From assembly GCA_025359065.1 (NCBI GenBank), contig JANYHM010000080.1, forward strand, positions 1 through 64,000: a stretch of DNA of 64,000 nucleotides. The letters are read 5' to 3'. Below the pieces are notes generated by a model. That model was not told the DNA's origin. It did not search any database and saw only the letters and a list, made by a program, of their open reading frames with translations. Of this stretch, positions 10,207-57,252 are shown one piece after another. Position numbers and translations under genes: made by a program. Origin of the DNA: Synechococcales cyanobacterium GL140_1_metabinner_5_sub. Its GTDB lineage: Bacteria; Cyanobacteriota; Cyanobacteriia; Cyanobacteriales; Chamaesiphonaceae. The first letter of the stretch is position 1, and each line of letters begins with the position of its first letter.

Positions 10207-12183
10207 CTATTTTGTCTCTTCCGCAAGGGCTTGGTGAGATAGTTCACAGAGAACGGTCAGAGTGCTGAGAGCTTGGCTAGCGGGCTGCAAATCACAGGCT
10301 AGAGCGTGATTTTTTTGACAGAGCACTCCGCTCAACAATTCCAGCGGCGGTAATAATTTTTGAAATCCGATCGATTTTCCTTGTTCCAATAGCTCTTGCC
10401 ACTGCCGACAGTGCATTTCATCAGCTTTGTTTAATCCTACCAACCAGATCTCTGCTAGAGCGATCGATAGCTGTTGCAGGTAACTAACTACTGGTGATTG
10501 CAATGTCATTACTAAGGTATCCAATGAAGCCGCAGTTACGTTTTTGCTGGCATCAATCCAAGGTTGCAGCAGGCTTCGCTGACCATCAGATTCAAAGACC
10601 AATGATAATGGCGCTAGCACCAATCTACCCTCTCCCAAGCTCACCTGAGCAGCCACAAACCGCAGATCTTGAGATTTTAACTGCTTCAACAAAGCCTCGG
10701 CTCCTGCTGCGCCACGACTGGTATAAGGATGAATTAGTGATGCTTGGTCGCCCGCTGCATCTAACAAAACAGCTCGAACAGTTTGGGTGATTGGGTCAAA
10801 AGATACTTGCTCTACCTGGTCGATCGGCAGCACATGTAAGCTCTCAGTCACGCGGCGGGGGCGGAGAGATCGAGGCGGTAAATTGACCAAGACTGCCTGT
10901 AAATCGGCAAAGCAATCAGCTAATAAGGGCGATCGAAGCTGCTCCCAACGAAAAGATTGGGGGTGTAGGCTTAGGGCACTGCGACCGGGCACAAATTCAT
11001 AGCTAGGGGTGCGTTTTCCGCCCTTAATTAACAACTGTCCTGCGCCGATACTCGCCAAGCTCAAGCCTTTGCTGATAGTAGTTTGGGCGAGCTGCTGAAA
11101 ATCTGCTGGCTGGTCAGCAATATTGACAAAGTGCCTGGGTATCGCCATCAAAGTACCTGAGTCGGCATCTTGCAAATAAGTAGTCAAAGTGACTCCTTTG
11201 GCTTGGATGGTAACACCACACCCCAGACCCACTAAGCGACTGGCACCTAAATTGCTAGTTTTATCTAGCTGGCTTCCCCCAATTAAAAGCTGAGGAATTT
11301 GATGACTGCCCCGGTGACGAATAGCATCACTACGCATCCATAATTCAGCTAAGAGAGTAACTACTCGATCGGGGGCAAAGCTACCATCCCGCTGTTGATA
11401 GAGATGATAAGCTTGCAGTAGATCCACTAAGATTTCTGCTAACCACACTAAGTTCCCAACCCGACAGCGTTGTTCTAGGCGGTTTAATCTGTCGGGCAAA
11501 GTGCGTTCCATGTTAGCAATTCCGCATTCGGCTAGCTCCGCTAAATGAGTTTCAATGTCGTCAAGTAAAGCGGTAGGAATTACTTCAATAGCCGTAGAAA
11601 TCAATCCATGATAGCGGTCTCCCAATTCTCGAAAAGCCCATACGGCTAGAGGCACATGACTACAAGGTGCTGATTCACTACAGTCGCAATGGGTATAGCG
11701 CGGATCGTTGGGGACTAGAAAGCGCAGGTTTAAAGACAGGGTGTGAAAGTGGGCAGTGGGCTTGGTGCCGCAGTTTACGCCAATCACCAAACCTGCTGAA
11801 TACTGCGATCGCAGCCTAGCCAATTGAGGCTTGGAGTACTGAGCATTTAATAACTCATCACTAATCTGTGCCGGATTCCAAGAGATCGCCTCTGGCTCTT
11901 TTTTATTCAGATCATTAGCTTGATAAGCCAGCACCGATCGCACAATATGCCGACAGAGACCAGTGGCCAGACAACTACACTGCCCCCGGGCGATCGTTAC
12001 ATTAGCAGGAAGCTTACAGCAAACCTCATCAGACCATTGAACTTCAACATTACCCGCCGCATCTTCCTGAAGCTTGGCCTGTAGCTCTAATGACTGCATC
12101 TCTTGCTGAGCACGTTTTACAATCCCCCGATTGCTCAAGGTAACTAAATCATCGCTGGTCAGCAGCAATAAATCTTGGCGCAT
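10207..12183 (-). CDS. SWIM zinc-finger protein (YehQ-like), 658 aa
   Basis: The N terminus has two CxC...CxH SWIM-type zinc motifs: C69-S-C71...C77-R-H79 and C166-D-C168...C174-S-H176. The large remainder, about 480 residues, is helical and Leu/Gln-rich. SWIM domains bind DNA or proteins. The size and gene order (VWA gene directly upstream) match the E. coli YehP-YehQ pair, part of a MoxR ATPase-associated system. The start ATG lies one base after the VWA stop codon, so the two are translationally coupled. A DUF5682/YehM-like partner is at 54874-57252. Function of the system is not established. Confidence 0.85.
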   Translation of the reverse strand: MRQDLLLLTSDDLVTLSNRGIVKRAQQEMQSLELQAKLQEDAAGNVEVQWSDEVCCKLPANVTIARGQCSCLATGLCRHIVRSVLAYQANDLNKKEPEAISWNPAQISDELLNAQYSKPQLARLRSQYSAGLVIGVNCGTKPTAHFHTLSLNLRFLVPNDPRYTHCDCSESAPCSHVPLAVWAFRELGDRYHGLISTAIEVIPTALLDDIETHLAELAECGIANMERTLPDRLNRLEQRCRVGNLVWLAEILVDLLQAYHLYQQRDGSFAPDRVVTLLAELWMRSDAIRHRGSHQIPQLLIGGSQLDKTSNLGASRLVGLGCGVTIQAKGVTLTTYLQDADSGTLMAIPRHFVNIADQPADFQQLAQTTISKGLSLASIGAGQLLIKGGKRTPSYEFVPGRSALSLHPQSFRWEQLRSPLLADCFADLQAVLVNLPPRSLRPRRVTESLHVLPIDQVEQVSFDPITQTVRAVLLDAAGDQASLIHPYTSRGAAGAEALLKQLKSQDLRFVAAQVSLGEGRLVLAPLSLVFESDGQRSLLQPWIDASKNVTAASLDTLVMTLQSPVVSYLQQLSIALAEIWLVGLNKADEMHCRQWQELLEQGKSIGFQKLLPPLELLSGVLCQKNHALACDLQPASQALSTLTVLCELSHQALAEETK

Positions 12184-12184
12184 C

Positions 12185-13315
12185 TTATTTCACCTTCTCC
12201 GCCACCCAAGCCGCTAACTCTCCTGGAGTCATGGCTCCTACTTGGGCACCCAAATTTACCATCTGCTGCGCTAGATCTCGATCGTAGTTCGGGTTAGCCT
12301 GCCCATCCAACGCCGCTAAGCCCAATAAATGCACGCCGCTTTCGACAAGCTGCTTAGTCACCGATAACAATCGATCGATCGGTGCACCCTCATAAAAATC
12401 AGTAATCAAAACAACTATAGTTCGACGTGGATTTTCTACCAAAGTCGCCCCATAGCTCAAAGCTCCCCCAATATCTGTACCGCCCCCTAACTGCACCTTC
12501 ATCAAAGTTTCTACCGGATCGCTACAGTCTGCTGTTACATCTACCACCGAGGTATCAAATAGACACAAGTGAGTTTTGAGGCTCTTCACCCCCAAGAAAA
12601 TCGCCGCTGTCACTGCCGAATGAATCACGCTATCTAACATGCTGCCAGATTCATCGACCAAAATAATCATCTGCCATTTATCGGCTTGGCGACGAACGCG
12701 GGAGTTGAAATAAGGGGTTTCAATAACTAGCTGCTGCCGATCGGGGTGATAGTTCCGTAAATTCCGTCTCACGGTAGTCCGAGCATCAAAGTTCTTGGCG
12801 ATTTTCAGGTAAGAGCGCTGCTGACGATTAATACTCCCTAAAAACGGCGATTGTACCAATCGAGCCAATTTTTCCATTAATTGTTCTACTACTTTCCGCA
12901 CCAGTTCTCGCGCTATTTCTAAGACAGCTTGATTCATTAAATGCTTTGTCCGCAATACTGCTTTGAGTAAGGTGGAGCTGGGCTGCACCCGCGCCAATAG
13001 ATCGGGGTTAGTTACCATTTCTTCTAGATGATATCGCTCTAGGGCATCTTTTTCTAGCCGCTCGATCGTCTTTTGGGGAAATAGTTCATGGACAGCATTA
13101 ATCCAATCGGGCACAGTGAGGCTGCTCGGATCTAAACTGCCCGAGCGATCTTGCTGATCTTTGCGGATATTCCGATCAGCGTTTTCTCGATCGTATAGAT
13201 AGCTGACCGTTGTTTCTCGGTCTTGCCATTCTGCGGACAAGCCGCCCAATAAATCTTCGGTGCTTTCGCCCAACAGTAATCGCCATCGCAGTCTGCGCTT
13301 ATCTTGTTCTGCCAT
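12185..13315 (-). CDS. VWA domain protein (YehP-like), 376 aa
   Basis: C-terminal von Willebrand factor A domain with an intact metal-ion-dependent adhesion site: D221-E-S223-G-S225, T280 in GGGTDIGGAL, and D306 in VLITDFYEG. The N-terminal half is basic and helical. I chose ATG 13315 (MAEQDKRRLRWRLLLGE) over the longer frame to 13417 because the product then matches E. coli YehP in length (about 378). VWA proteins of this class work with MoxR AAA+ ATPases as metal-dependent assembly or insertion factors; no MoxR gene is visible in the window. Operon with the SWIM gene (one-base gap). Confidence 0.88.
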   Translation of the reverse strand: MAEQDKRRLRWRLLLGESTEDLLGGLSAEWQDRETTVSYLYDRENADRNIRKDQQDRSGSLDPSSLTVPDWINAVHELFPQKTIERLEKDALERYHLEEMVTNPDLLARVQPSSTLLKAVLRTKHLMNQAVLEIARELVRKVVEQLMEKLARLVQSPFLGSINRQQRSYLKIAKNFDARTTVRRNLRNYHPDRQQLVIETPYFNSRVRRQADKWQMIILVDESGSMLDSVIHSAVTAAIFLGVKSLKTHLCLFDTSVVDVTADCSDPVETLMKVQLGGGTDIGGALSYGATLVENPRRTIVVLITDFYEGAPIDRLLSVTKQLVESGVHLLGLAALDGQANPNYDRDLAQQMVNLGAQVGAMTPGELAAWVAEKVK

Positions 13316-13449: not shown

Positions 13450-15162
13450 TTAATAGTGATTGCCAACTCGGCGGTGATGCACTGCCGTCAGGCCCACATC
13501 TTTAGCCACCCGACCGTCGGCCACCGTGGCATAGACAATGTGATGATCATTGCAGGCTAAGCGACTGACAACCTCGCATTCTAAATAAGCCAAAGCATCA
13601 GTGAGAATCGGAATCCCATTAGCAGCCTCTTGAGTTTTGACATTGGCAAACCGATCGGCACCCGGAGCAAATCGCTTCAAAAAGTGGCGCATCAATAGTT
13701 GATAGTTACCTTCTTCTAAAATATTCAGAATAAACTTATCGCCCACCTGCATCAAAGAATCGATCGCCCGATCATTAGCCACCGCGATCGACACCCCCAA
13801 AGGTTCAAAGCTAGCCTGAGTTACCCAAGAAGCCAACATCGCACTGCTCGAATCGCCTTTCTTGGCCGTAATGATGTACAAACCACCGCTAATTCGCCCC
13901 AAAGCCTTATCTAGATCAGAATCCAGCGACTTCATTTGCTTAATCGCCTGATCTTTCGTCAATAACTGGCCCAGGTCAGTCCCGGCTTCTTCGCACTGCT
14001 GATACACCGCCTCACTGGGCACATCTAACACCCGAATCGGCGGGAAAGCAACCACCGCCCCAATTTCTCGGAACCTAGTCAAAATTGGATCCACTGGCTC
14101 ATCGTCACCGCCGTAGGATTCTAGTAACCCTACGGCCTGCTTACCAGTAATCGCCGCTAGCACAGTACCGATCGCCGCCGTCGCAGTCCCGGCTGTAGCC
14201 GGCGGCATCGCAATCACAATGCCAGTACTGCGACCAACAAGTTCTTGCACCTCTTGAGGATCTGAGGCATTCAGATCCATCATTTCTACAGCCACACTGG
14301 TTTTAGTAATACCTCGGGCGATCGATTGAGTCAGCCGATCGCTATAGCCATAGTCTGACACATAAAACACTGCCACCGTGGTTTCGGCCTTGGCCTTCAC
14401 CTGACTCCATTGGCGATAGCGTTCTACCAGCTCCGTGGTGTTATATTTCAACATTGGGCCGTGGCCAGTGCCGATCATCTTGACCTCTGGCAGCTCACCC
14501 ATACGTTTTAAGGCCGAGAGCACCGATCGAGCATTGGGAGCCATCAAACACTCATAGTAAAACCGATAGTCTGGCGAGATCCGCTCCAAATCTTCATCAA
14601 AATCTGCATCAGAGCAATAGTGCAAGCCAAAAGCATCGCAGGTATATAAGATCTGGGTGCCGTGGTCGTAAGTAAAAATGGTATCGGGCCAATGTAAGTT
14701 GGGAGCCATCACAAACTCTAGCTCATGCCCCTGACCCAAATCGATCTTGTCGCCGTTTTTAATGATTTGAGTAGTAAACTGCTGATGGACAAAGTTTTTA
14801 AGAAACTCGATCGCCACTTTAGAACCCACCACCGTAGCCTGGGGAGCTAAGGCTAATATATCTTTCACCAAGCCACTATGGTCTGGTTCGGTGTGGCTGA
14901 TGACTAAGTAATCAATTTTGCCAGGGTCAATCTGTCCCCGCAAAGCATCTAAATAAAGCTGCCGGAACTTTTCGTGGGAGGTGTCAACTAGGGCTAACTT
15001 GTCGCCTTGAATAATGTAAGAGTTGTAGGTGGTGCCATTTTGCAGCCCAAACTCAATATCAAATCGATCGCGTTCCCAATCTAGCGATCGAATGGTGGTG
15101 GTATTGGTGCCGACCGCTGCGGTCTGGATGGTGAGCCGCTTGGTGACTGTTGCTGAAACCAT
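13450..15162 (-). CDS. flv3: flavodiiron protein, Flv3-type
   Basis: Reduces oxygen to water with NAD(P)H or ferredoxin electrons, protecting photosystem I. Three domains: a metallo-beta-lactamase-like diiron domain (1-250), flavodoxin-like (about 265-405) and a C-terminal flavin reductase domain (about 420-570), the cyanobacterial class C arrangement. All six diiron ligands are canonical: H90-x-E92-x-D94-H95, H157, D176 and H234. That fits Flv3 (or Flv2) rather than Flv1/Flv4, which have substitutions. The N terminus (SLDWERDRFDIEFGLQNGTT) is like Flv3. No flv1 partner is adjacent. Flv3 versus Flv2 is my judgement from recalled sequence. Confidence 0.88.
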   Translation of the reverse strand: MVSATVTKRLTIQTAAVGTNTTTIRSLDWERDRFDIEFGLQNGTTYNSYIIQGDKLALVDTSHEKFRQLYLDALRGQIDPGKIDYLVISHTEPDHSGLVKDILALAPQATVVGSKVAIEFLKNFVHQQFTTQIIKNGDKIDLGQGHELEFVMAPNLHWPDTIFTYDHGTQILYTCDAFGLHYCSDADFDEDLERISPDYRFYYECLMAPNARSVLSALKRMGELPEVKMIGTGHGPMLKYNTTELVERYRQWSQVKAKAETTVAVFYVSDYGYSDRLTQSIARGITKTSVAVEMMDLNASDPQEVQELVGRSTGIVIAMPPATAGTATAAIGTVLAAITGKQAVGLLESYGGDDEPVDPILTRFREIGAVVAFPPIRVLDVPSEAVYQQCEEAGTDLGQLLTKDQAIKQMKSLDSDLDKALGRISGGLYIITAKKGDSSSAMLASWVTQASFEPLGVSIAVANDRAIDSLMQVGDKFILNILEEGNYQLLMRHFLKRFAPGADRFANVKTQEAANGIPILTDALAYLECEVVSRLACNDHHIVYATVADGRVAKDVGLTAVHHRRVGNHY

Positions 15163-15480: not shown

Positions 15481-15891
15481 CTAGCGTTTTTTGGTGCTCA
15501 ATACTTTGATCTTAGTCACCAAAGCGCCCTTGATTTTTTCGTAGTCAGTAGCGGTGCCGCTGTTAGGTTTAGGGAAAAAGTCTAAAGCGCCTGCTTTCAT
15601 GAGGCTATAGATATTTTCTACATCATTAGGGTGAACAGCATTGCTGATTACCAACACTGGTAAGGGATTTTGAGCCATTAGCTTTTGAGTAAACTCTAAG
15701 CCATCCATAGTAGGCATTTGCAAATCGGTGCAAATTACATCTGGCTTGGTTTGTTCAATTATTCGTAGACCTTCCGCGCCATCACGGGCGGTGCCCACCA
15801 CATCAATTTCTGGTGAAGAATTGAGCAAGCGCTCCAAAACTTCTAAGGCAACGATCGAATCTTCGACTAGTACTACTTTTACAGGGGTCAT
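15481..15891 (-). CDS. CheB-like response regulator receiver, no methylesterase domain
   Basis: A 136-residue stand-alone receiver. The acidic pocket includes D11 and the phosphoacceptor is D56 in VICTDLQMPTMDG; the conserved Ser (VLVISN) and Lys (FFPKP) follow. The ALEVLERLLNSSPEIDVVGTA and ALDFFPKP signatures are those of CheB receivers, yet the protein ends after the domain, without linker or esterase. Last gene of the chemosensory operon: its ATG overlaps the CheA stop by 4 bases. With no methylesterase and no CheR nearby, it probably acts as the CheY-like output or phosphate sink. Confidence 0.85.
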   Translation of the reverse strand: MTPVKVVLVEDSIVALEVLERLLNSSPEIDVVGTARDGAEGLRIIEQTKPDVICTDLQMPTMDGLEFTQKLMAQNPLPVLVISNAVHPNDVENIYSLMKAGALDFFPKPNSGTATDYEKIKGALVTKIKVLSTKKR

Positions 15892-18329
15892 GGCTTGGTT
15901 TTTATTAATGTATTAAGTGTGTTTAACAGCAGAGACTGATCAAAGTCTCCTTTGGTCAAGTAAGCAGATGCACCGGCTCGTAGACCGCGCTGGCGATGCT
16001 CTTCTTTGGCGAGGGTTGTCACCAAAACGATCGGGAGATCTTGGTATGCAGCAATTTCTCGAATACTCTTGGTCATTTCCAGACCAGTCATATTGGGCAT
16101 TTCTACATCCGAAACGATCGCATCGAAAGAGCCAGCCTGTAATTGGTTGAAGCCATCCAAACCATCTACGGCAGCAGTTACGTTATAGCCAGCTTGAGCC
16201 AGAATACGCTGTACCTGCGTCCGAATCGGAGCGGAATCTTCGACTAACAGAATATTGGGTGGTTGATATTCTGTAGTTAGTGACAAGCGGCGCTCAGAAC
16301 TAATCAACTTGCCACCGGCAGCCACGAATAAATCTAATGGATTTAGCACCATACAGATTTCGCCACTGCCTAAAATGCTCGCGCCAGAAATATTTGGGAC
16401 ATTTCTTAAGAGCTTGTTGAGCGCTTTTACTACAATTTGCTGTTGTTCGAGTAGCTCATCTACCAGTATGCCCAAGTAATCCCCGTCGATCTTCATGAAA
16501 ATACAGGGGATTTTTTGCTGGAGTTTAAATATGGCACCAGTAGAACTCGGTGATACTGGCGACAGCTCTAGTAAGTCGGCCAACCAAGCTACCGATACGC
16601 CTCGATCTTGCCAATGAACTGTCAGCTTGCCATCGAGACTGAAGATTTCTTGCCGATCAATAAACTGCATAGACTCGATCGAATCCAGCGGCATAGCGTA
16701 GGGCAACTTTTGCACCTGTAAAATCAGAGCATCTACTGTCGCCAAACTATTGTTCAACAAAATGCGGAAAGTACAGCCCTGGCCAGGAATCGAGTCGATT
16801 TTGATCGAACCCTTGATTTTTTCGATGTTGGTGCGCACCACATCTAAACCTACGCCCCGCCCCGAAATTTCGGTAACTGTAGTTTTTGTAGAGAAACCTG
16901 CCGCAAAAATTAGTGATTGAATTTGATCTGAAGTCATCAGATCTAGCTCAGCTTCGCTGTATAAACTCCGGCGAATTGCAGTTTGACGAATAGCATCTAG
17001 ATCCAAACCACGACCATCATCAGAAATAATAATTTCGATTTGATTGCCGCGCTGCACGCCCCGCAACAGCAGCTTAGAAATTGCTGGCTTGTCGCCCCGC
17101 TGGCGGGTAGGTTCAATACCATGATCGATCGCGTTACGCAAAATGTGAGTAAGAGGATCTTTTAGAGCTTCGATAATTTGCTTATCGGCTAAGACATCAC
17201 CGCCTTCGATCGCAAAATCAATGTTTTTGTCTTGTTGACGACCTAGATCGCGCACCAATCGAGGGAATACCCCAAACACGCTCTGTAGTGGCAACATTCT
17301 AATTTGGCGAATGCCACCTTCTAGATCGGTTGCGACTGAAGCTAGACGAGTGGTATCTTCTGCCGAAGCCACCTGCATGTGGCTCAGAATATTGCCAAAC
17401 TCTTGAAGCTGAGGAATAGCAGCAAAATCAGCACCTTGGAATCTAACCCAGTCTTCCCAGAGACGAGTGAGAGTCATGAGCTGTTCGTGGCGCTGTAGAA
17501 TGCGCAGTTTGGCCACCGCTAATTCATCGGCCTGCATCATCAGGCGCTCTAGCTTGATAGCTTCTACCCGAATTGTGCTAATTTCAAACGTTTCTTTATT
17601 GTCGTGAGGATCTGTGGCAGTGACCTCTGGTAAATCTGCAACCGGAGTTGCTCTATTAGTAACAACAGGGGTTACGGGGGCTTTTTGATTTGCTGCTGAT
17701 TCCGCAGCTAAACTGGCCAGCATGTCTTGAAGATTTGGTAAATCTAGATCGCCACCCTCGGCAAATGCCATGGCCACAGCGGCAGCCGTAGCAGCTTGTT
17801 CTTCTAAAGTTTGCTCATCAAAACCCGGAATTCCCGACAGTGAATCTTCATCAAAGGCCAAAATCTCGGCAAAATCCAGCGTAGTTTCTGGTTCTAGAGT
17901 AGCTACAATATTGCTCTGCTCCGCAGTCTGGTCATTACCAACCATCGCACCACTGGCTTTTACCATTGCTGCTACTACCTGAAATAGTTTCAGATTAGCC
18001 GGTTCGCCAGTAACAGCCTCGTGAGCAATTTTGCCCACGGCATCTAAGCCCTGGTAAAGGCTATCGCAGATTGCAGGGGTGACTTCTAGTTTGCCCTGAT
18101 CGATCGCCATCAGCACTTCTTCCATTTGATGCACGACTGTTTCGGCATCGACTACTCCCAACATGCGGGAGTCGCCTTTGAGAGAGTGGGCATCGCGCAG
18201 CAACGCCTGTAAGGGCGATCGATCAGTAGGCTGTCGCTCTAATTGCAGCAGGCCATTTTCGATCGAAGCGAGGTGTTCGGCACTGGCAGCTTCATATAAA
18301 CTGCGGAGTTCTTCATCATCAATGAACAT
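15888..18329 (-). CDS. CheA-type hybrid histidine kinase with C-terminal receiver, 813 aa
   Basis: Domains in order: HPt (1-110, phospho-His48 in RDAHSLKGDSRMLG), an acidic/Ala-rich linker (about 120-250), a dimerisation helix pair, a HATPase (N box HILRNAIDHGIEP, G1 DDGRGLDLDA, G2 GRGVGLDVVRT), a CheW-like regulatory domain (about 540-670), and a receiver (NILLVEDSAPIRTQ... SDVEMPNMTG). This is the kinase core of the second chemosensory system in the window. It overlaps the CheB-like receiver gene and follows the receptor gene by 33 bases. Built-in receivers on CheA are typical of type IV pilus/alternative systems (PilL-like) in cyanobacteria. Confidence 0.94.
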   Translation of the reverse strand: MFIDDEELRSLYEAASAEHLASIENGLLQLERQPTDRSPLQALLRDAHSLKGDSRMLGVVDAETVVHQMEEVLMAIDQGKLEVTPAICDSLYQGLDAVGKIAHEAVTGEPANLKLFQVVAAMVKASGAMVGNDQTAEQSNIVATLEPETTLDFAEILAFDEDSLSGIPGFDEQTLEEQAATAAAVAMAFAEGGDLDLPNLQDMLASLAAESAANQKAPVTPVVTNRATPVADLPEVTATDPHDNKETFEISTIRVEAIKLERLMMQADELAVAKLRILQRHEQLMTLTRLWEDWVRFQGADFAAIPQLQEFGNILSHMQVASAEDTTRLASVATDLEGGIRQIRMLPLQSVFGVFPRLVRDLGRQQDKNIDFAIEGGDVLADKQIIEALKDPLTHILRNAIDHGIEPTRQRGDKPAISKLLLRGVQRGNQIEIIISDDGRGLDLDAIRQTAIRRSLYSEAELDLMTSDQIQSLIFAAGFSTKTTVTEISGRGVGLDVVRTNIEKIKGSIKIDSIPGQGCTFRILLNNSLATVDALILQVQKLPYAMPLDSIESMQFIDRQEIFSLDGKLTVHWQDRGVSVAWLADLLELSPVSPSSTGAIFKLQQKIPCIFMKIDGDYLGILVDELLEQQQIVVKALNKLLRNVPNISGASILGSGEICMVLNPLDLFVAAGGKLISSERRLSLTTEYQPPNILLVEDSAPIRTQVQRILAQAGYNVTAAVDGLDGFNQLQAGSFDAIVSDVEMPNMTGLEMTKSIREIAAYQDLPIVLVTTLAKEEHRQRGLRAGASAYLTKGDFDQSLLLNTLNTLIKTKP

Positions 18330-18362
18330 ATTAGCGACTCAACGGTTTTCAATATGACGGTG

Positions 18363-19694
18363 TTAAACAATCCCTTGTAGTTGATTGGTAGTGTTAACTA
18401 AATCATTCGTAGCTTTTTTCACTTGGGCAACCCCAGAAGCGGTTTCTTGAGAACCCAAGTTGATGGCGTTAATTGCCGCAACTGCTTGCTGTACCGTAAT
18501 CGCCTGCCGCTTGGAGCTAGACGAAATTTCTTGAGTGTTGGTAAACACCTCGTTAATTGACCGTTCAATACCAGCAAACGCTTCGGCAGTATCGATCGCT
18601 AGGGTAATGCCTCGGGCAGCAGTTTTGGTTCCTTCATCTGTCACCATTACCGTACTGTTAATCGAAGCTTGTACTTCAGAGATTAGGGTGTTGATTTTTT
18701 CGGCAGACTTTTTACTTTGGTCGGCCAGTTTCCGTACTTCACCCGCTACTACGGCAAATCCTTTCCCTTGTTCACCGGCACGAGCTGCTTCTACCGCTGC
18801 GTTTAGCGATAGCATGTTGGTTTGGTTGGCAATATCGGCCACGAGGTCAGATACCGAGGCAATCTGAGTAGTTTGTTGACTGAGCTGCATGATTTTTTCG
18901 GCGATCGCTTCTACTCTGGCACTGAGGTCGGTAATACCTTCAATGGTACGAGATACCGCTTCTGAGCCAGTTTCGGAGAGCGTCAATGCTTTTTGAGCCT
19001 CAGTTGCGGAGTTTTCTGCTCTCATTGCGGCCTGCATCGATGCCGAACCCAATTCTTCAATTGTGGCGGTAGTAGTTCGTACCGAATCAGCTTGTTCCAA
19101 AAGCTGAGATTCTTGTTGGCTAACAGTTGCCGCAATTTGCTCTGAAGATTTAGATACACTATTAGTAGAATCAGTCAAAACTTTAGAGATGCTTTGAATA
19201 ATTAATCCCATGAAGGCCAACGCCAACAGGTTAATAAAGGCCGTAGTTAAAGCTACTAAGCGCAAGTTGGCAACGTGAGCTTCGCTTTTGCCTTCTTCTG
19301 CGGTAGCCAGTTTGCTGGAATCTGCAAAAAAGATTTGGGCAGCATCAACCAAATCGCCCAGTAGTCGTGGGTTGGTTTGGTATTCAGCACCGATTGCCTG
19401 CATTTTAGCAAAATCAACCTGTAGTTTTTTGGCAAGATTACTAATAGCTACATCATCTTCTTTGACCATAATGGCCAATAGCTGATTCATAGTGCTGACA
19501 ACTTCGTCAGTTTTGCGACCAGCAACTGCGAGAGTAGCAAATCGTTGTGATCCCCCCCGGAGCGCCCCCGCATTGTTCAGAAATTTCGCATCGTTGGTCA
19601 TTTGTCCTACCCCAGACTGAATGACGGCGGTGCTGACAACAGTAAGGCCGATTAATCCGGCAACAGCAAATTTAAGGCGAGTGGTAATTTTCAT
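18363..19694 (-). CDS. methyl-accepting chemotaxis protein, PilJ/NarX-like sensor, 443 aa
   Basis: An N-terminal membrane helix ([20 protein letters not shown]), a short periplasmic domain of about 115 residues, a second helix (about 147-167, [19 protein letters not shown]), then the cytoplasmic signalling coiled coil with the conserved hairpin tip ([21 protein letters not shown], around residue 300). The periplasmic [14 protein letters not shown] segment resembles the PilJ/NarX type helical sensor motif (GxxRxxSQR). I see no clear HAMP domain. Third of five genes spaced by 31-33 bases. The ligand is unknown. Confidence 0.92.
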
Positions 19695-19725
19695 GATCTT
19701 GTGATTTTTAGGTAGAAGGTTAGAA

Positions 19726-20757
19726 TTAAGCTATTTTTAAAAGCTGAGGCAGGTTAAGGACACTCAGCATCGTGTCACGGTAAGGGGTGGTGCTCTCTAT
19801 TAAGCCGATGCGACTCTGCTGATTAGCCACCGGCACCACTGCAAAAGCTGAGCGATCAATATACAAAATATCGTGGAGTTCGTCGATCGAGAGACCAGCA
19901 ATCACATCACCAATTTGAGTGACTACTGCTTGGCTACTGGGGACAGTAGCGATCGGCAGATTCAGGGCAGGCCGCATATCTACCAAGGTCATGATTTCGC
20001 CCCGCAAATTCATGTTGCCGATAATTTGGCTAGGAGCACAGGGAATAGGCCGAATATTTTGGGTATTAATAAACTCCCGCACCAAGGCGAGGCTGATACC
20101 AAAGTATTCCCCGCCCAAACCAAAAACTGCTAGTGGCACAGCCTGACTGTTATCACTAGCTTCTACGGCAGGGCGTAAACTGGCTGCTCGTTGGCTCATG
20201 AGCTGACGCTCTACCGCTGTTGCTGTCGGAAAATACAGGTCGTAGAAACTACCAATTTTCTCGATCGGCACATCGGTCAACAGACCACCGGTTTCATCGG
20301 CCTGCCAGACCCAGTCGGCCACTTCGTCTGGTAAAGAAACTAAGGCATCGGGATTTAAAATCAATAGGTTTTCATCACCATATTGGGTAACACCACTCAA
20401 AAAAGCAGTGTTGGTATGACCTTGGCGGCCATAGGCTAAGTCTCGATCAATGGCTAGTTCATCTAAAACACAGACTTCACTCACTCGATCGACAATGGCA
20501 CCAATTTGGAAACCACTACAATCCAGTACTATTACGGTGTCAGATGCAGTACAGACCAAGGGCGCTCTACTGATACGCCGTCGCAGGTGCATTACCGGCA
20601 GCATTTTACCCCGTAGGTTAATCATGCCCAGCAAATCTGCGGGAGTTTCGGGCACTATTTGTAGTTCGGGCAATGGAAAGATTTCTAATACATGATCGGT
20701 AGAAATCGCGTAATGGGCATCCTGTAAGTGACAGGTGAGATAAGATTGCTGACTCAT
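19726..20757 (-). CDS. double CheW-domain protein, 343 aa
   Basis: Two CheW-like SH3-fold domains in tandem. The first (about 1-165) has LPLPELQ-type text as [20 protein letters not shown] followed by [13 protein letters not shown]; the second (about 205-343) has [20 protein letters not shown] and [10 protein letters not shown]. It couples receptor to CheA, and two docking domains in one chain could crosslink array units. Most cyanobacterial systems use single-domain CheW proteins, as does the hmp locus here. Located between the PatA-like regulator and the receptor, with 31-33-base gaps. Confidence 0.9.
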
Positions 20758-20790
20758 AAGCCGGGGTAGATGTTTAAATAATTAATGAGA

Positions 20791-34220: not shown

Positions 34221-34504
34221 GGATCGCCTGATAGATGCAGTATTTGACATCAATTGATCTGCCGCCATAAAAAGTTTGGAAAAGACGAAATTTCGATCCC
34301 CCCTATTATTAGTTATGGGGTAATTTTTGGCAACGATTGTTAGGATAATCTTCACTGATCCACTGTCGATACAATGGCCGATTGTTGATTGATCGCTGCC
34401 CTAAATATCTAAATTTGCAGAAAAACTGCGGTATCAGGTAGAACTTAATACCGATTAAGTCTTAAAATGTCTGCTGAAGACATCCACACAAGAGCACGGA
34501 ACCA

Positions 34505-44247: not shown

Positions 44248-44285
44248 CTGCCTGCTGTTACCCAATTTTAATTTCCGGCAAAATC

Positions 44286-47200: not shown

Positions 47201-49532
47201 TGACCTAGAGATGAATGCCGACTTGGTAGGTCTAGATCTAAATGAACTCGATGATGACTTGAATGGTTTGAATATCAACTCTGACCTAGAGATGAATACT
47301 GACTTGGTGGGTCTAGATCTAAATGAACTTGATGGTGACTTAAATGGTTTGGACGACTTATTAGGTACACCAGCACAAAGTTCTTTAACAGATCTTGATG
47401 AACTGCTGGCTGAAGAAACCTTTGAGGATCTTGATGCCTTTTTAACCGTACCGCCTGTTGATCTGCCAACTGTATCTATTGCTACTGCCGCAGTTACCTC
47501 GGATGTAGATGCTGCGATTATCCCTACTGCCCAACCCATTTCAGAACACAAAGCTGCCACACCAGCAGCTAGGAATTCTCGCAGTAAGCAGCGCACCTTT
47601 GAGCAGACCATGCGGGTGTCGGTGAAGAACCTAAACAACCTGAATAACCTCACAGGAGAATTGGTTGTCAATCGCAACACCTTAGAGCAAGACCAAAACC
47701 GGATGCGGCAGTTTATCGATAAACTGTTGTTAGAAGTGCAAAAGCTTAACGAAGTGGGCAAATCGATGCAGGATTTATATGAAAAATCTTTGCTAGAAAG
47801 CTCGCTATTGGCCAGTCGCCAACAAAGTCAGCAAGCCAAATCAATGGTGCCTGGTAGCACCGGTAGCAATGGCGGCGATGCTGAATACGATCCATTAGAA
47901 ATGGATAAATTTACGCCTGTCCACTTAATCTCTCAACAGATGATTGAGTTGACAGTGCGGATTCGCGAGTCTACTTCGGATATTGAATTTGTGGTAGACA
48001 GCAGCACCGAAGTTACCCGCAGCTTACGTCAAATTACCAGCCAGCTCCAAGAAGATCTAAATAAGAGCAGAATGTTACCATTCTCGCAAACCTCTGATCG
48101 ACTTCAGCGAGGTGTGCGTGACAACGGGCTGAAATATGGCAAGGAAGTAGATCTGCGGGTAGAAGGTAGCGATACTTTAATTGACAAGGTGATTCTAGAA
48201 AACCTGAACGACCCGCTAATTCATATGGTGAATAACGCGATCGCCCACGGTATTGAGTCTCCAGCAGAACGCCTAGCCGCAGGCAAACCACCAGAAGGTG
48301 TGATTACTATTAGTGCTACTCACCAAGGTACTCAAACCATTATCTCAGTAAAAGACGACGGTGCGGGTATTGATGCCGATCGGGTAAAAAACAAAGCGAT
48401 CGAAAAAGGCATTATCACTCCAGCGCGGGCAGTAACTATGACCAAGCAAGAAGTTTATGAACTACTCTTCTTGCCCAGTTTCTCTACCAGAGACCAAGCC
48501 GATGAATTGGCCGGTCGTGGCGTAGGGATGGATGTAGTACTGAGCAGTTTGCAAGAAATTCGCGGTACCATCACCACTGAATCGAAGCTGGGTAAAGGCA
48601 CCATCTTTACCATTCGTTTGCCGCTTGCTTTAAGTATTACCAAGGCGCTAATGGCTTCCAACAAAGATGTGGGAATTGCTTTCCCCATGGATGGGATCGA
48701 AGACAGCTTATCAGTGAAGCCTTACAGCGTTATTGAAAACGCCGACGGTCAGAAGTTCTTCCCTTGGCGCGATCAGCAAATGCCTTTCCGTCCACTCTCC
48801 GATTTGTTGGCTTTCAATCGCCCCATGAAGCGAGTGAACTATTACGGTGCAGCGATCGAAGATTCTGAGCAAACTATCTCCATTATCGTTTTACGCAGCG
48901 GCGGTGATTTGGTAGCTGTCGAAGTCGATCGAGTGCTGGGTGAACAAGAAATTGTAATTAAGCCTCTCCAAGGCCCTGCTCCTAAGCCACTAGGAATTGC
49001 TGGAGCCACAGTGTTAGGTGATGGCCGAATTATCCCGATCGCTGACGTGTTGGAATTAGTAGACCTAGCTTCTGGCAAGTTAGAGAAAAACATCAACCAA
49101 ACTTGGTCGATGGGCGATATCCCCGAAGACCAAGCAGCTCAAAGAGAACCCATGGTGTTGGTAGTAGACGACTCCATTACAGTTCGTCAGCTTCTATCTC
49201 TCACCTTTACCAAGGCGGGCTACCGAGTAGAACAAGCCAGAGACGGTCAAGAGGCTTGGGACAAACTGCGGGCTGGTCTCCCTTGCGATATCATCTTCTG
49301 CGATATCGAAATGCCTCGGATGGACGGGCTAGAGCTGTTGTCTAAGGTACAAGCCGATGAAGTGATTCGTCAGATTCCGATGGCAATGCTTACCTCCCGT
49401 GGCTCCGATCGCCACCGGCAAATTGCTTCTCAGTTAGGGGCTAGTGGTTACTTTATTAAGCCTTACCTCGAAGATGCGCTGTTAGAAGCGGTGAAACGGA
49501 TGCTCAAAGGCGAAGTGCTGGCGATCGTCTAA
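44286..49532 (+). CDS. hmpE: giant CheA histidine kinase HmpE with receiver, 1748 aa
   Basis: HPt domain at 1-110 (phospho-His46 in RAAHSIKGGAAML) and a second helical region (about 140-240). Then an acidic Asp/Leu/Glu-rich insert from about 255 to 1095, the kinase (dimer helices about 1101, N box HMVNNAIAHGIES about 1309, KDDGAGIDADRV about 1357, GRGVGMDVVLS), a CheW domain (about 1455-1600) and a receiver (MVLVVDDSITVRQ... CDIEMPRMDG, about 1622-1745). The insert makes it roughly twice the usual CheA length and contains an 81-base tandem duplication. Kinase of the pilus-motility system; ends at a strong terminator. Confidence 0.93.
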   Translation: MAETDRILGYFLDEAQEHLRTIEEGLILPMSLAEPAKIKEVFRAAHSIKGGAAMLGLEVVLQLGNHFEQAFKAIKDRSIPVDDKLQDLLLEGLEILRLSIQMVQHGQTVPTDLLKEAVFAKIAKRIQKSGGEITTDDSDLPFTDPAIEQVFGNYVNQKLQQFVDICKKTQPEVVTKQELQPICQKIGSLGESFEYLAWTNLLISCRLAVNNPLNSVVQLREVIPNAIHQAQMLVMAGKHHAITSTPELEILLAPNAITNTRTQTGLSAYDTLDSITGVWDDVVINEDESSDFTPEKPQPTSADFLFEPQMVSTETIGDDSFGDSELDEFMQLFDEELSFDGTWVQNEDILTHEDPQTEYAEPNISKNLWDEDIATRPISNSLMPMESTFSETETIGRLPQFDFEQVSDSDLFIEDVTDTAVKPSPVRPTAAIDWSGLLADIPDQIIVEYKEPSQPLPDLPPAMEKVPIELTNDLLDDLPANLPAQINLSPTNHDDNFSDSFTDDPFLSDFSDLPFGLDLEDPFEVAASPDIPPPFEHSVAQRETIASDFNDPFLIDELLDDEPVIESGDELDDLINELSEPFEVKASVFSPPDHPQLKPIDADYLKELAMFDDLLADTKTTDVDLADLEQMIANGNLEEELDLENIEDFSPASVNSKVNSKLLINFDDFLTEAKTTVNNATNFNNFPDSPPTGTEHSTVMTVPVVITAEAAATSIAERAATFATERAATEDELGLEDLDLLDLQSIENLADLNYELDDVLAGLNMLDISDAELPSRNLADLLDQDFEFGDLDSESLNFGNQEASEDIDLEDDLENPDQSTELTSSISELFMDDFDSSYYPTTENNLFTAPLYGQNNSDNLTSLSLSYMDLESELESVTHQPADSDLLDLLNGAEQPSLPIVRNEATEAMNFDSFDLDFNNQTVDKNKFGRNADELASLDLVGVDFDSISADQSPAANPEELDDDLNGLDINSDLEMNADLVGLDLNELDDDLNGLNINSDLEMNTDLVGLDLNELDGDLNGLDDLLGTPAQSSLTDLDELLAEETFEDLDAFLTVPPVDLPTVSIATAAVTSDVDAAIIPTAQPISEHKAATPAARNSRSKQRTFEQTMRVSVKNLNNLNNLTGELVVNRNTLEQDQNRMRQFIDKLLLEVQKLNEVGKSMQDLYEKSLLESSLLASRQQSQQAKSMVPGSTGSNGGDAEYDPLEMDKFTPVHLISQQMIELTVRIRESTSDIEFVVDSSTEVTRSLRQITSQLQEDLNKSRMLPFSQTSDRLQRGVRDNGLKYGKEVDLRVEGSDTLIDKVILENLNDPLIHMVNNAIAHGIESPAERLAAGKPPEGVITISATHQGTQTIISVKDDGAGIDADRVKNKAIEKGIITPARAVTMTKQEVYELLFLPSFSTRDQADELAGRGVGMDVVLSSLQEIRGTITTESKLGKGTIFTIRLPLALSITKALMASNKDVGIAFPMDGIEDSLSVKPYSVIENADGQKFFPWRDQQMPFRPLSDLLAFNRPMKRVNYYGAAIEDSEQTISIIVLRSGGDLVAVEVDRVLGEQEIVIKPLQGPAPKPLGIAGATVLGDGRIIPIADVLELVDLASGKLEKNINQTWSMGDIPEDQAAQREPMVLVVDDSITVRQLLSLTFTKAGYRVEQARDGQEAWDKLRAGLPCDIIFCDIEMPRMDGLELLSKVQADEVIRQIPMAMLTSRGSDRHRQIASQLGASGYFIKPYLEDALLEAVKRMLKGEVLAIV
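47166..47366 (+). repeat. 81-bp tandem repeat inside hmpE
   Basis: Two near-identical 81-base units (47166-47246, 47247-47327) and a partial third (47328 on), each encoding 27 residues of the form LDxDLNGLxINSDLEMN + xDLVGLDLNE. The units differ at only a few bases, so the duplication is recent. It keeps the reading frame. Confidence 0.9.
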
Positions 49533-52923: not shown

Positions 52924-53037
52924 AAATTTAACCTAGTGTAGTCGAGACATCTTCTAACTTCTTCTTCCATCAGGAACCAGGATTCCTTTAGAATGGAGAT
53001 AGTGAAATTTTGCGCGCTTCAACCATTCAAGGCTTCT

Positions 53038-54849
53038 ATGACCAATACTCCAGTCGATCGCATCCGCAACTTCTCGATTATCGCCCACATTGACCACGGC
53101 AAGTCTACTCTGGCCGATCGGCTGCTGCAAGACACCGGCACAGTCGGCAACCGAGAAATGAAAGAACAGTTCCTCGACAACATGGACTTGGAAAGGGAGC
53201 GCGGCATCACTATCAAGCTGCAAGCCGCCCGCATGAACTATACGGCCAAAGACGGCAAGCTTTACGTCTTGAACCTGATCGACACTCCTGGCCACGTCGA
53301 TTTTTCTTATGAAGTATCTCGTAGCTTAGTAGCCTGCGAAGGAGCGTTGCTGATTGTCGATGCCTCCCAGGGCGTAGAAGCCCAGACTCTGGCCAACGTA
53401 TATTTGGCTCTAGAGAGCAACCTAGAAATTATCCCTGTCCTGAACAAAATAGATCTCCCCGGAGCCGAACCCGAAAGAGTTCGCGCAGAAGTAGAAGAAA
53501 CCATTGGCTTAGACTGCTCCAATGCCATTTTGGCTTCAGCTAAGACCGGCATCGGCATCGTAGAAATTTTGGAAGCGATCGTTGAGCTAGTACCGTCGCC
53601 TGCTGATACCGTTGACCAACCATTGCGCGCCCTGATTTTTGACAGCTACTATGACACCTACCGAGGCGTGGTGGTTTACTTCCGGGTGGTGGACGGCAGT
53701 GTTAGTAAAGGTGATAAAGTGCGGCTAATGGCCAGCGGCAAAGAATATGTCATTGACGAATTAGGCATTTTATCTCCCCAGCAGATTCAGGTAGACGAAC
53801 TGCACGCCGGAGAAGTAGGCTATTTTGCCGCCTCAATTAAAGCGGTTGGCGATGCCCGGGTTGGTGACACCATCACCATGGTTAGTCGGCCAGCGCTGGA
53901 GGCTCTGGGTGGATACAGCGAAGCTAAACCCATGGTATTTTGCGGATTGTTTCCGATCAATGCCGACCAATACCCCGACCTAAAAGAAGCCCTGGATAAG
54001 CTGCGTCTCAATGATGCCTCACTCAACTACGAGCCAGAAAGCTCTAGCGCGATGGGCTTTGGTTTCCGCTGTGGCTTTTTGGGGCTGCTGCACATGGAAA
54101 TTATCCAAGAGCGCCTGGAGCGTGAGTACGACCTAGATCTGATTACTACCGCGCCTTCGGTGGTTTACAAAGTAAACGTTCCTAACGGGGAGCCGATCTA
54201 CATCGATAACCCCAGCACCTTGCCCGATAATAACCACCGCACTTCGATCGAAGAACCCTACGTTAAGCTAGAGATGATTACCCCCGAAGACTATGTGGGG
54301 ACTTTGATGGATCTCTGCCAAACTCGGCGAGGCATTTTTGTGGATATGAAGTATCTGAGCAAAGGGCGTACCACGCTGATCTATGAGTTACCCTTAGCAG
54401 AAGTAGTTACAGATTTCTTTGACCAGATGAAGTCTCGCACCAAAGGCTACGCCAGCATGGAGTATCAGCTCATTGGCTACCGAGAAAACAATCTGGTTAA
54501 ACTAGATATCGCTATCAACGGCGATCCGGTAGATGCTCTAGCCATGATTGTCCATCGGGACAAAGCTTACAACATTGGGCGGGCAATGACCGAGAAGCTC
54601 AAGGAGCTAATTCCTCGTCACCAGTTCAAGGTGCCAATTCAGGCAACGATCGGCGCTAAGATTATTGCCAGTGAGCAGATTCCGGCCATTCGCAAGGACG
54701 TGTTGGCAAAATGTTACGGTGGGGATATTTCCCGCAAGAAAAAGCTGCTGCAAAAACAAGCTAAAGGTAAGAAGCGGATGAAGTCTTTAGGTACTGTGGA
54801 TGTGCCGCAAGCGGCTTTTATGGCTGTGTTGAAGTTGGATAAAGATTAG
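53038..54849 (+). CDS. lepA: elongation factor 4 (LepA)
   Basis: Translational GTPase that remodels ribosomes (back-translocation). 603 residues from ATG 53038 ([20 protein letters not shown]), the usual start; the frame to 52993 is an extension. G1 is [15 protein letters not shown]2/switch I GITIK, G3 [12 protein letters not shown]4 NKIDLPGA and G5 SAKTG. The C-terminal LepA domain ends with [20 protein letters not shown], as in the family. 24 bases before the DUF5682 gene. Confidence 0.97.
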
Positions 54850-54873: not shown

Positions 54874-57252
54874 ATGGAACAACCTCTCCAGCTAGATTCC
54901 AAGATTTATCAAACTGATGGCAATGTCGTATTCTTCCCTGTTCGGCACCATAGCCCTGCTGCTGCCCGCATTATCCGGCAACTGATCCAAGAAATCAAAC
55001 CAACGGCGATCGCCATCGAAGGCCCCAGCGACTTCAATGCACAGATCTCGGAGCTCTTTTTATCTCATCAACTGCCGATCGCTATCTATAGTTACATTCA
55101 AACTACCGAAACTCGCCGAGGAGCTTTTTACCCTTTTTGTATTTATTCTCCCGAATGGCAAGCCCTGCAAAGCGCCCATAAATATAATATCCCGGTAGAG
55201 TTTATTGATCTTCCCTGGGCAGATTCTCCCACTAATCGCACAAGCCAAAATTACTACAGCGACGAAAGCTTTAGTCACAGCAGCTATGTAGATACCCTCT
55301 GTCAAAAGCTTGGTCTTCCGGACTTTGATACTCTTTGGGACACCCTCTTTGAAATAGATCCCAACCTATCTATTAACGAATACTTAGAACGCTGCCATCA
55401 GTTTTGCTATCATCTGCGCACCAGTGAGCAGCAATCATCCAGCTCTGACCAACAGCGGGAAGCTTTCATGGCCGAGCAAATTCGATCGCTGATCTCACGA
55501 TATCCCGGCAAAACATTAGTAGTTACCGGCGGTTTTCATAGTTATCCTTTATATCGATTAGTCGTCCTTCACCAAGACCCTCCAGAAATACCTATAGATC
55601 TCACCCCGATCCCTGTACCAGAGGTGATCGTTCAAGGTATTGCCCTTACCCCCTACTCCTATGATCGGCTAGATAATCTCACCGGCTACAACTCAGGGAT
55701 GCCCAACCCCGGTTTTTATCACGCAGTCTGGCATCAAAGATCTCAACAGAACGCATCTAACCAAACAATCCCGGCTTCCTTGATGGGTGAGGGTGAGTCA
55801 ACATCGCACAGCCTAGTCGATCGCCTTCTCTCCAAAATCATCACATTCCTCCGCCAGCGCCAACAAATCGCTAGCACCGCCGATTTCATCGCTGTCAAAA
55901 CCCTTGCTCAAGGACTCGCTGACCTGCGCAGTCACCCCGAAATTTGGCGACAAGACCTAATCGATGGCGTAATTGGTGGACTAGTCAAAGAAGACGCAGG
56001 CAGCGCTCATCCCTTTTTGGCCGCAGTGCAAGCCGTATTTCGAGGAGGCGATCGAGGTCAATTAGCTGTTGGAACCACTTTACCCCCTCTAGTCCAAGAT
56101 CTTTATCAACAGCTACATCATCTCGACATTTTTCCTACCGACAAACCCCGAGATATTGACCTAGATCTTACTCCTCATCAAGAATCTGCACGCCCAATAT
56201 CCGCATTACTACATTCGATGAAGATTCTAGGAATCGCTGGCTGCAATCGAACCGGTGGCACTAATTTTACAACTCGCCAAGATTTGGTGAAAATCTGGGA
56301 ATGCTGGCAACTACAATGGTCTCCAGAATTTGATGCCAGCTCCATCGAAGCAGCAATTTACGGTACAACAGTAGCCGAAGCCACTGTCGCTAAGTTAAGA
56401 GAACGCGCCGATCAGCTCCAGCGTAACGCCGAAGGCGCAGCTTTACTGTTATTAGATGCCGGTTTAGCGGGAGTACAAGAACTTACTCCCGAGTTTTATC
56501 CACGTCTAGTAGAGCTGATTCGTCAAGATGGAGATTTTTTGTCGATCGCCCGATCACTCCGGCATTTGCTTTATCTCTATCGCTATGATGAAGTATTAGG
56601 CACCAGGTCAAAAACAGATTTAGCCACTATTTTAGTAGAAGCCTTTCAGCGAGGACTATGGTTATTAGATAGTCTGGGTACGCCAGGAGCAGATCAAGAT
56701 TTATTAAAAGGCTTGGCCGGTTTGTTGGAAGCTTATGAATGTTGTGGTGCTCTGTTGCTCGATCGCAAGCCAGAATTTTTACAGGTGCTAGAGCGGGTAA
56801 GTCAAGATACCTCTCAGACTGCTTCAATGCGGGGCGGATCGATCGGTGTTCTTTGGGTGCTAGGTGCGATGGGAGCTAAAGATATTTTGGCAACTATCAA
56901 CTATTATTGTCAGCCAAATTCTTTAGGCGATTTTCTCACTGGCTTATTTTATTTGGCACGAGAAACTACTCAGCGGGCACCCGGATTGCTGTTAAGCATT
57001 GATAAATTATTGTTAGCTTACGAAGACAATGAATTTTTGGAAGCCTTGCCCTCTTTGCGTTTAGCCTTTGGTTACTTTACCCCACGGGAGAAGCATTTAA
57101 TGGCCAAAAATTTGCTGCAATCTACTGGCTCTATTGGTGTGGCCACTAATGAACTGTTGTTACCGGTGAGAATTGAAGATGCCATGCAGGCTATCGAGTT
57201 GGAATCTAGACTGTTTGCGTTGGCCGATCAGTATGGTTTTCGGCAATCGTAA
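54874..57252 (+). CDS. DUF5682 family protein (YehM-like), 792 aa
   Basis: The N terminus (VVFFPVRHHSPAAARIIRQLI, then AIAIEGPSDFN) has the family signature: conserved RHHSP and EGP, and later PVEFIDLPW and LVVTGGFHSYPL, resembling TraB/EreA-like folds. The C-terminal half (about 420-790) is helical and Leu-rich. E. coli YehM, of similar length, belongs to the yehL-yehM-yehP-yehQ MoxR cluster; here the YehP- and YehQ-like genes are at 10.2-13.3 kb. ATG 54874 is 24 bases after lepA; an in-frame GTG at 54850 is possible. Followed by a strong terminator. Confidence 0.85.
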   Translation: MEQPLQLDSKIYQTDGNVVFFPVRHHSPAAARIIRQLIQEIKPTAIAIEGPSDFNAQISELFLSHQLPIAIYSYIQTTETRRGAFYPFCIYSPEWQALQSAHKYNIPVEFIDLPWADSPTNRTSQNYYSDESFSHSSYVDTLCQKLGLPDFDTLWDTLFEIDPNLSINEYLERCHQFCYHLRTSEQQSSSSDQQREAFMAEQIRSLISRYPGKTLVVTGGFHSYPLYRLVVLHQDPPEIPIDLTPIPVPEVIVQGIALTPYSYDRLDNLTGYNSGMPNPGFYHAVWHQRSQQNASNQTIPASLMGEGESTSHSLVDRLLSKIITFLRQRQQIASTADFIAVKTLAQGLADLRSHPEIWRQDLIDGVIGGLVKEDAGSAHPFLAAVQAVFRGGDRGQLAVGTTLPPLVQDLYQQLHHLDIFPTDKPRDIDLDLTPHQESARPISALLHSMKILGIAGCNRTGGTNFTTRQDLVKIWECWQLQWSPEFDASSIEAAIYGTTVAEATVAKLRERADQLQRNAEGAALLLLDAGLAGVQELTPEFYPRLVELIRQDGDFLSIARSLRHLLYLYRYDEVLGTRSKTDLATILVEAFQRGLWLLDSLGTPGADQDLLKGLAGLLEAYECCGALLLDRKPEFLQVLERVSQDTSQTASMRGGSIGVLWVLGAMGAKDILATINYYCQPNSLGDFLTGLFYLARETTQRAPGLLLSIDKLLLAYEDNEFLEALPSLRLAFGYFTPREKHLMAKNLLQSTGSIGVATNELLLPVRIEDAMQAIELESRLFALADQYGFRQS

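Follow-up and report, generated by a model that had tools for sequence, protein, structure and literature searches.

A 64,000-nucleotide stretch of the Synechococcales cyanobacterium GL140_1_metabinner_5_sub genome (contig JANYHM010000080.1, positions 1 to 64,000; hereafter the window) was found to carry genes for a VWA protein, a SWIM protein and a DUF5682 protein, which sequence comparison showed to be related to YehP, YehQ and YehM of E. coli, respectively. We consider it somewhat probable that these genes are the YehP, YehQ and YehM members of a five-component system built around a MoxR ATPase of the YehL subfamily, and that this system is a hydrolase machine acting near nucleic acid. The identity of the system and the co-inheritance of its parts, taken jointly, appear close to certain on the sequence comparisons given below; the mechanism, a hydrolase guided by nucleic acid, is a tentative proposal. 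MoxR proteins comprise seven subfamilies, including YehL, and their presumed role is the maturation or activation of complexes (PMC3893208).

The VWA gene (12185..13315, minus strand) encodes a CoxE-like protein of 376 amino acids (aa) that matched VWA families only in Pfam, with no further domain (PF05762 VWA_CoxE, E 1.6e-50), and showed 52.6% identity with E. coli YehP (E 1e-145), of which it is the orthologue. Its MIDAS (metal ion-dependent adhesion site) residues D221, S223, S225, T280 and D306 are intact and identical in 66/66 aligned relatives. Transcription runs from VWA to SWIM with a 1-bp gap, the second gene (10207..12183, minus strand) encoding a 658-aa YehQ-like protein (25.7% identity with YehQ across 568 columns, E 7e-35). 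The Pfam SWIM model did not reach E 0.1 with this protein; its two SWIM-type CxC..CxH motifs (window 11947-11979 and 11656-11688) are intact, and their residues line up with those of YehQ. The sequence-only reading of the window had described this pair as coupled in the order of yehP-yehQ and had placed a DUF5682/YehM-like gene 41 kb away behind lepA, and both statements agreed with our results. The DUF5682 gene (54874..57252, plus strand) lies 24 bp downstream of the host gene lepA (52993..54849, plus strand, TIGR01393) and is separated from the VWA gene on the same contig (C84) by 41,559 bp, and its 792-aa product was assigned as the YehM orthologue by Pfam (PF18934, E 1.2e-118) and by comparison with YehM (32.8% identity, E 6e-88). 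All three open reading frames (ORFs) were intact at these coordinates. The protein lengths noted earlier stood except that of YehQ, which is 614 aa in the current RefSeq record and not about 678. NCBIfam held no specific model for the system proteins.

The window had been said to lack a MoxR ATPase, and no AAA_3 or AAA_5 (MoxR-type) profile match was obtained inside it. A genome-wide search for a YehL-type ATPase, set beforehand as a test, gave 17 AAA_5 matches in the source genome (G000; 3.92 Mb, 121 contigs, 99.84% complete), and the top two were YehL-like: a MoxR protein on contig C47 with 53.7% identity to YehL across 356 columns, and a copy on contig C85 with 42.4%. The Walker A residues K94 and S95 of MoxR were conserved in 54/54 relatives. 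The C47 gene begins 14 bp after the circadian gene kaiC (TIGR02655, 1034 bits), with kaiA upstream (PF07688), and MoxR is probably co-transcribed with this clock gene; kaiC was seen at no other MoxR locus read, the relatives' own kaiC loci lying outside the comparison. A cupin-like gene (by sequence reading; NCBIfam gave no match) follows MoxR in L015:8547-11957. The fifth member, a YehI-like DUF4132 protein, is encoded by a single copy in the genome on contig C64 (locus L121). In comparison with the system-linked DUF4132 protein of G196, a genome of the same family, the C64 protein scored 573 bits, six other cyanobacterial copies scored 28-128 bits and the G137 copy gave no match; linked copies from other phyla scored low as well (L073, 122 bits; E. 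coli YehI, 235 bits). The C64 gene is followed by one for a weakly NblB-like protein (L121:9644-10303; 76.8 bits, cut-off 300).

The five members thus lie in four places, namely C64 (DUF4132), C47 (MoxR) and two sites on C84 (VWA-SWIM and DUF5682). The dispersal described by the sequence-only reading is real, but its two loci became four places with a fifth member, and a second, paralogous system was found in clustered form. A single directional cluster of YehL-, YehM-, YehP- and YehQ-type genes was not found here, these four families occupying three places; membership is instead based on orthology and co-inheritance, and we therefore speak of a dispersed variant. The paralogous cluster on C85 is complete in the order SWIM-DUF5691-MoxR-DUF5682-VWA (L014, 5086-12448). 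It shares MoxR, DUF5682, VWA and a SWIM protein with the dispersed system and differs in that DUF5691 replaces DUF4132, in its gene order and in being clustered; its proteins show 25-45% identity with the dispersed copies. An IS1182 transposase gene (816-2462) and, downstream of the cluster, a DUF262-like gene (by sequence reading) were also noted in L014.

A VWA similarity search of GTDB genomes supplied 65 loci, spread over many phyla. All four families (MoxR, DUF5682, VWA and SWIM) were present within the stretch at 54 of the 65 loci, in the order MoxR-DUF5682-VWA-SWIM at 53 of these 54, and DUF4132 was also present at 51 (46 upstream of MoxR, 4 between DUF5682 and VWA, and 1 behind SWIM). 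The usual cluster elsewhere, across many phyla, is DUF4132-MoxR-DUF5682-VWA-SWIM, and DUF5682 was located upstream of VWA in the same stretch at 62/65 loci. At two loci a single open frame encodes a DUF5682-VWA fusion with both domains near full length (L019:7370-11107 and L046:7577-11116). A similar frame at L030 was dropped, its DUF5682 part ending at model position 729 and being followed by an arginine-rich stretch. Behind the first set, L046 carries a second, more divergent MoxR-DUF5682-VWA set (16432-21041). DUF4132 was read between DUF5682 and VWA in the rhizobial and other proteobacterial loci L066, L068, L074, L075 and L081, and L068 has a further DUF4132 copy on the opposite strand. 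In E. coli K-12 the genes run in one direction as yehF, yehH (a pseudogene), yehI, yehK, yehL, yehM, yehP and yehQ, and yehLMPQ is near-core in the species (5,162 of 5,426 genomes, about 95%, with at least 80% of the cluster). The E. coli yehI-yehL-yehM-yehP-yehQ genes share all five families and the VWA-SWIM coupling with the source genome; they form one directional cluster accompanied by the WGR protein YehF, whereas the source genome has four places, no WGR protein and MoxR behind kaiC. A WGR domain was N-terminal on 4 of 6 DUF4132 proteins scanned (L018, L022, L037 and L075), not on the L121 protein or E. coli YehI; the domain is also on YehF.

Co-occurrence was determined in 194 cyanobacterial genomes using profiles A8 (MoxR), A6 (VWA) and A7 (YehQ-type SWIM). 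The results showed that MoxR, VWA and over-cut-off DUF5682 occur in the identical 9/194 genomes (a tenth DUF5682 match was a 17.7-bit scrap), an overlap with a hypergeometric probability of 1e-15 when shared descent is ignored; counted by genus, the figure is 8/94. DUF5691 exceeded its cut-off in 8/194 genomes, all within the nine, and was listed in 16, eight of them below cut-off only, including G168, the ninth system genome. YehQ-type SWIM was found by A7 in 1/194, the source genome only, a count restricted to the first subtype as this profile is blind to the SWIM protein of the second system; where the second system is scattered, no SWIM protein was located for it. DUF4132 was looser, occurring in 8/194 genomes with just 2 of them holding other members. 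Among 60 relatives the VWA protein was present in 8, and in seven relatives checked for MoxR the five VWA-positive genomes had it and the two VWA-negative genomes did not. The first subtype, by VWA score, was found among these 60 only in G196; the congener G194 has the second subtype only, by VWA and MoxR.

Scattering is not peculiar to the source genome. On the single-contig chromosomes of G002 and G060 (about 5 Mb each), the DUF5691, MoxR, DUF5682 and VWA genes of the second subtype are mutually 0.78-2.36 Mb apart, and in G112 the same four families are spread over four contigs. DUF4132 and MoxR adjoin in G196, and DUF5682, VWA and SWIM are about 0.4 Mb away; the WGR-DUF4132 gene there is read as two consecutive ORFs (L115:10961-14295), and two gene pairs resembling RES/Xre and MazEF toxin-antitoxins (by sequence reading) stand between DUF5682 and VWA (L091:10915-12622). 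The cyanobacterial locus L019 has DUF5682-VWA, with MoxR, SWIM and DUF4132 not found in its 19-kb stretch, and clustered copies exist in cyanobacteria as well (L018, L024 and L040). A third, divergent subtype in the order VWA-MoxR-DUF5682, with DUF5682 at only about 100 bits, was noted in L096 and L108 (G168 and G216); in L109 (G204), of the same subtype, VWA alone was read. An assembly artefact was rejected as the source of the scattering, given that DUF5682 and VWA-SWIM share a contig at a distance of 41 kb, that MoxR and DUF4132 lie inside their own contigs with other genes on both sides, and that G002 and G060 are scattered on single-contig chromosomes. The core parts in cyanobacteria are kept or missing together, even when the genes are scattered.

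Pairwise distance-matrix correlations were then calculated for the five families from near-full-length sequences only (54 MoxR, 59 DUF5682, 66 VWA, 39 SWIM and 56 DUF4132). All ten pairs gave r between 0.77 and 0.98, and 0/999 permutations reached any of these values. G196 held the nearest relative for four of the five proteins (MoxR 79.6%, DUF5682 61.4%, VWA 80.6%, SWIM 56.2%); for DUF4132 the nearest was L018 (56.1%), followed by L024 (54.0%) and G196 (51.9%). At the level of sequence distances, the five-way correlations support co-inheritance, and together with the shared set of nine genomes they bear out what the sequence-only reading had supposed of these proteins.

We next considered predicted structures of the DUF5682 and YehQ-like proteins (mean predicted local distance difference test scores of 89.4 and 90.6, respectively). 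Residues 3-235 of the DUF5682 model (54880..55578, plus strand) matched chain DQ of Tetrahymena complex IV (8b6h_DQ; Z 10.5, 197 aligned, root-mean-square deviation [rmsd] 4.6) and HopBA1 (5t09; Z 8.6, 153 aligned, rmsd 4.1), which we take to be a member of the TIKI/TraB/ChaN superfamily. Two GX2H motifs and a glutamate form the signature of that superfamily, and a candidate active site of DUF5682 consists of H25, E49 and GGxH222, with H25 and E49 in 58/59 aligned relatives (the remaining row is gapped) and G219 and H222 in 59/59. Pfam ChaN/Tiki (PF04187) gave weak matches in 4/51 DUF5682 members (best E 0.0011) and TraB in 1/51 (E 0.31). Tetrahymena complex IV is reported to contain a TraB-family accessory subunit, with no chain named for it (PMC10060162). 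The DUF5682 N-terminus is predicted to be akin to TIKI/TraB/ChaN hydrolases. Compared with the TIKI/TraB/ChaN-EreA superfamily, it may share the fold, as the model predicts, and the H, E and GGxH residues; it differs in having a large helical part in the same chain and in its tie to a MoxR-VWA pair, its hydrolase role being a prediction. The C-terminal part (residues about 260-790; 55651..57243, plus strand) is predicted to be mostly helical and HEAT-like, and the fold list for the whole model, mostly HEAT-like helical matches, was taken as arrangement only. Sequence searches of solved structures with both profiles (E up to 1) gave nothing relevant, and a YbaP search of solved structures (E up to 10) gave no TraB chain. 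In the YehQ-like protein, residues 306-539 (window 10567-11268) are predicted to form a tandem OB fold, for which the nearest structures were HIN domains (up to Z 8.4), RPA70 (Z 7.8 across 175 residues), LEF-3 and telomere-end proteins, the scores being moderate and going down to about Z 6.2; the top row for the whole model (Z 8.7), a designed helical protein on the last helices, was again taken as arrangement only. YehQ looks like zinc fingers combined with tandem OB folds.

On this basis the following machine can be proposed. The MoxR ATPase would act on the VWA protein, which would hold a target or partner via its MIDAS site and would be joined to the DUF5682 protein, whose predicted N-terminal TIKI/TraB/ChaN-like domain would be the probable, peptidase-like hydrolase. 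The SWIM/tandem-OB and (WGR-)DUF4132 proteins would probably bring the machine to nucleic acid or to damaged nucleoprotein, WGR having been lost here, and the whole would serve in quality control or stress, driven by ATP and equipped with a hydrolase of its own. In its fullest form, which we hold to be possible yet doubtful, the proposal is of a five-subunit, nucleic-acid-guided MoxR machine delivering a TIKI-family protease: WGR-DUF4132 and SWIM/tandem-OB would find damaged DNA or nucleoprotein, MoxR-VWA would remodel it and DUF5682 would cut. As part of the same doubtful proposal, the cyanobacterial cluster would have come apart repeatedly, in each of the two subtypes, with the set retained and the machine assembled in trans, its motor here probably co-transcribed with kaiC. 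The molR gene of E. coli, yehF under its old name, enters here, a CTGN10CAG site lying 9 bp before yehF. molR is on lists of LexA-regulated genes (PMC11039860, PMC4576408), and in Deinococcus radiodurans mitomycin C raises a DUF4132 protein (DRA0166) and a WGR protein (DR2173), but not in an irrE mutant (PMC8533742). A link to DNA damage is thus suggestive, and it is this link, along with the near-core cluster of E. coli, that leads us to favor a quality-control or stress machine.

Several results weigh against this proposal, and they are gathered here. The CTGN10CAG pattern has 16 matches in a 26-kb stretch of E. coli (6.4 expected), and the strict 20-base LexA pattern misses the yehF site, its sole match lying inside yehM (0.44 expected). 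LexA boxes were also scanned at the 43 of 65 loci with enough upstream room, using 860 control segments: the beta/gamma-type box was found in 8/43 upstream regions (about double the control rate of 8.4%), the gram-positive-type box in 9/43 (27.9% of controls), and the gram-positive core and both alpha forms in 0/43. LexA boxes are therefore not a general feature of the system. A WGR profile search of the source genome gave no match, and DUF4132 occurs without other members in 6/194 cyanobacteria. Concerning the predicted hydrolase, the first GX2H motif has G in 35/59 and P in 23/59 relatives, the window protein having P; the PF04187 matches are little above noise, since AAA_lid_2 also matched 4/51 members (best E 0.017) and one unrelated family reached E 0.002; the DUF5682 profile aligned with E. 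coli YbaP (TraB family) by hhalign at a probability of 0.3%, which is not significant; Foldseek searches with the DUF5682 and the YehQ-like models both came back without a PDB match at E <=0.001; and we infer that chain DQ is the TraB-family subunit, an identification confirmed by no search. As for the putative nucleic-acid-binding parts, the tool itself rates Z-scores such as the value of about 8 for the OB folds as common, and the SWIM cysteines vary among relatives (C71 in 30/39, C166 in 28/39). The mechanism as a whole is likewise inferred.

An alternative that we consider unlikely is that the genes form a conflict (defence) system of the vWA-MoxR ternary type, in which MoxR-VWA would be an ATP-driven switch arming a TIKI-like hydrolase on invading nucleic acid. 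A MoxR-VWA core is common to ternary conflict systems (PMC7159879), the distribution in cyanobacteria is patchy (9/194), and sequence reading suggests four small toxin-antitoxin-like genes between DUF5682 and VWA in G196 and a DUF262-like gene after the second cluster. The near-core status of yehLMPQ, however, speaks against a patchy defence island in E. coli, and a PADLOC scan of ten proteins of both systems yielded a single contact with a model, that of the second cluster's SWIM protein at 19.1 bits. Relatives of the MoxR protein (E up to 1e-40) were found in 40/72,556 plasmid records, some chromosome-sized, and of the VWA protein in 1/50,697 phage records. The vWA-MoxR-VMAP and other ternary conflict systems (PMC7159879) share the MoxR-VWA pair with the system here, which differs in showing no VMAP in Pfam (no dedicated VMAP profile was run), in a 376-aa VWA protein with no fused effector domain in Pfam, and in being near-core in E. 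coli; the Pfam bpMoxR model gave 19.3 bits, below its 27-bit cut-off. Similarly improbable to us is a metal or cofactor insertase, in which MoxR-VWA would supply an enzyme, or the ChaN-like DUF5682 protein, with metal or haem, in the manner of CoxD, NirQ/NorQ and chelatases. The VWA protein is CoxE-like, metalloenzymes are matured by other MoxR proteins (PMC3893208), Pfam places its weak match in the haem-binding ChaN branch, a flavodiiron gene adjoins, and a molybdopterin or molybdate link has been proposed for DUF4132 and MolR (PMC8533742). Yet the latter paper reports no differential expression of moeA and moeB, the constant fifth neighbor is DUF4132 (51/54) and no known cofactor enzyme, and the SWIM, OB and WGR parts are not obviously required for insertion.

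That the operon is a relic decaying in this genome, its scattered genes nearing loss or put to unrelated uses, strikes us as quite improbable. The loss of WGR here, the congener G194 with the second system only (by VWA and MoxR) and the DUF4132 gene of G196 in two ORFs would fit such decay, but all five genes are open, the key residues of MoxR, VWA and DUF5682 and those of the SWIM motifs are intact (none being defined for DUF4132), the set is co-inherited, and in G002 and G060 the MoxR, DUF5682, VWA and DUF5691 genes are each at least 0.78 Mb apart and all kept. The window itself, where DUF5682 stands apart from the other two genes, might suggest three unrelated single genes merely resembling yeh genes; in view of the co-occurrence, the co-inheritance, the conserved cluster elsewhere and the DUF5682-VWA fusions, this is hardly credible. 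A known parallel is the pairing of a MoxR protein with a VWA cofactor in RavA-ViaA (PMC3893208). The five-component system proposed here has DUF5682, SWIM and DUF4132 partners. RavA-ViaA belongs to another MoxR subfamily and is not known to have any of these.

Among the neighbors in the window, the VWA gene lies 134 bp downstream of a host gene for a flavodiiron protein (13450..15162, minus strand, Pfam). The sequence-only reading had found this neighbor unusual; the gene is real, but it is probably no clue to function, because DUF5682 shares the stretch with VWA and lies on its upstream side at 62/65 loci (flavodiiron genes were not searched there). The flavodiiron, lepA and kaiC neighbors were all discarded as functional clues, since G196 groups DUF5682, VWA and SWIM and has MoxR behind DUF4132. 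A perfect 14-bp inverted repeat with a T6 end, terminator-like in appearance, is at the DUF5682 stop codon (57252..57285, plus strand). Elsewhere in the window are two chemotaxis-like clusters, the first (15481-21933) with a CheA-like kinase, MCP, CheW and response regulators and the other (41737-49532) with a second MCP and a 1748-aa CheA-like protein, and a gene for an ARC6-like cell-division protein with a DnaJ domain (32007-34355).

Both the YehL subfamily and the DUF names were known before, and our literature search found no paper assigning the yehLMPQ cluster a function. As far as the literature searched goes, there is apparently no description of the fifth member, the DUF5691 subtype, the assigned folds, the fusion or the joint retention of the genes in a scattered state. 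The yehLMPQ genes are widespread, in about 95% of E. coli genomes and in many phyla, and yet have no assigned function in that literature; with the fifth member, the predicted hydrolase-like fold, the predicted OB module and the DUF5682-VWA link, a set of DUFs becomes a testable machine. Cyanobacteria with scattered genes offer a natural experiment, in which the set would be retained through function rather than linkage.

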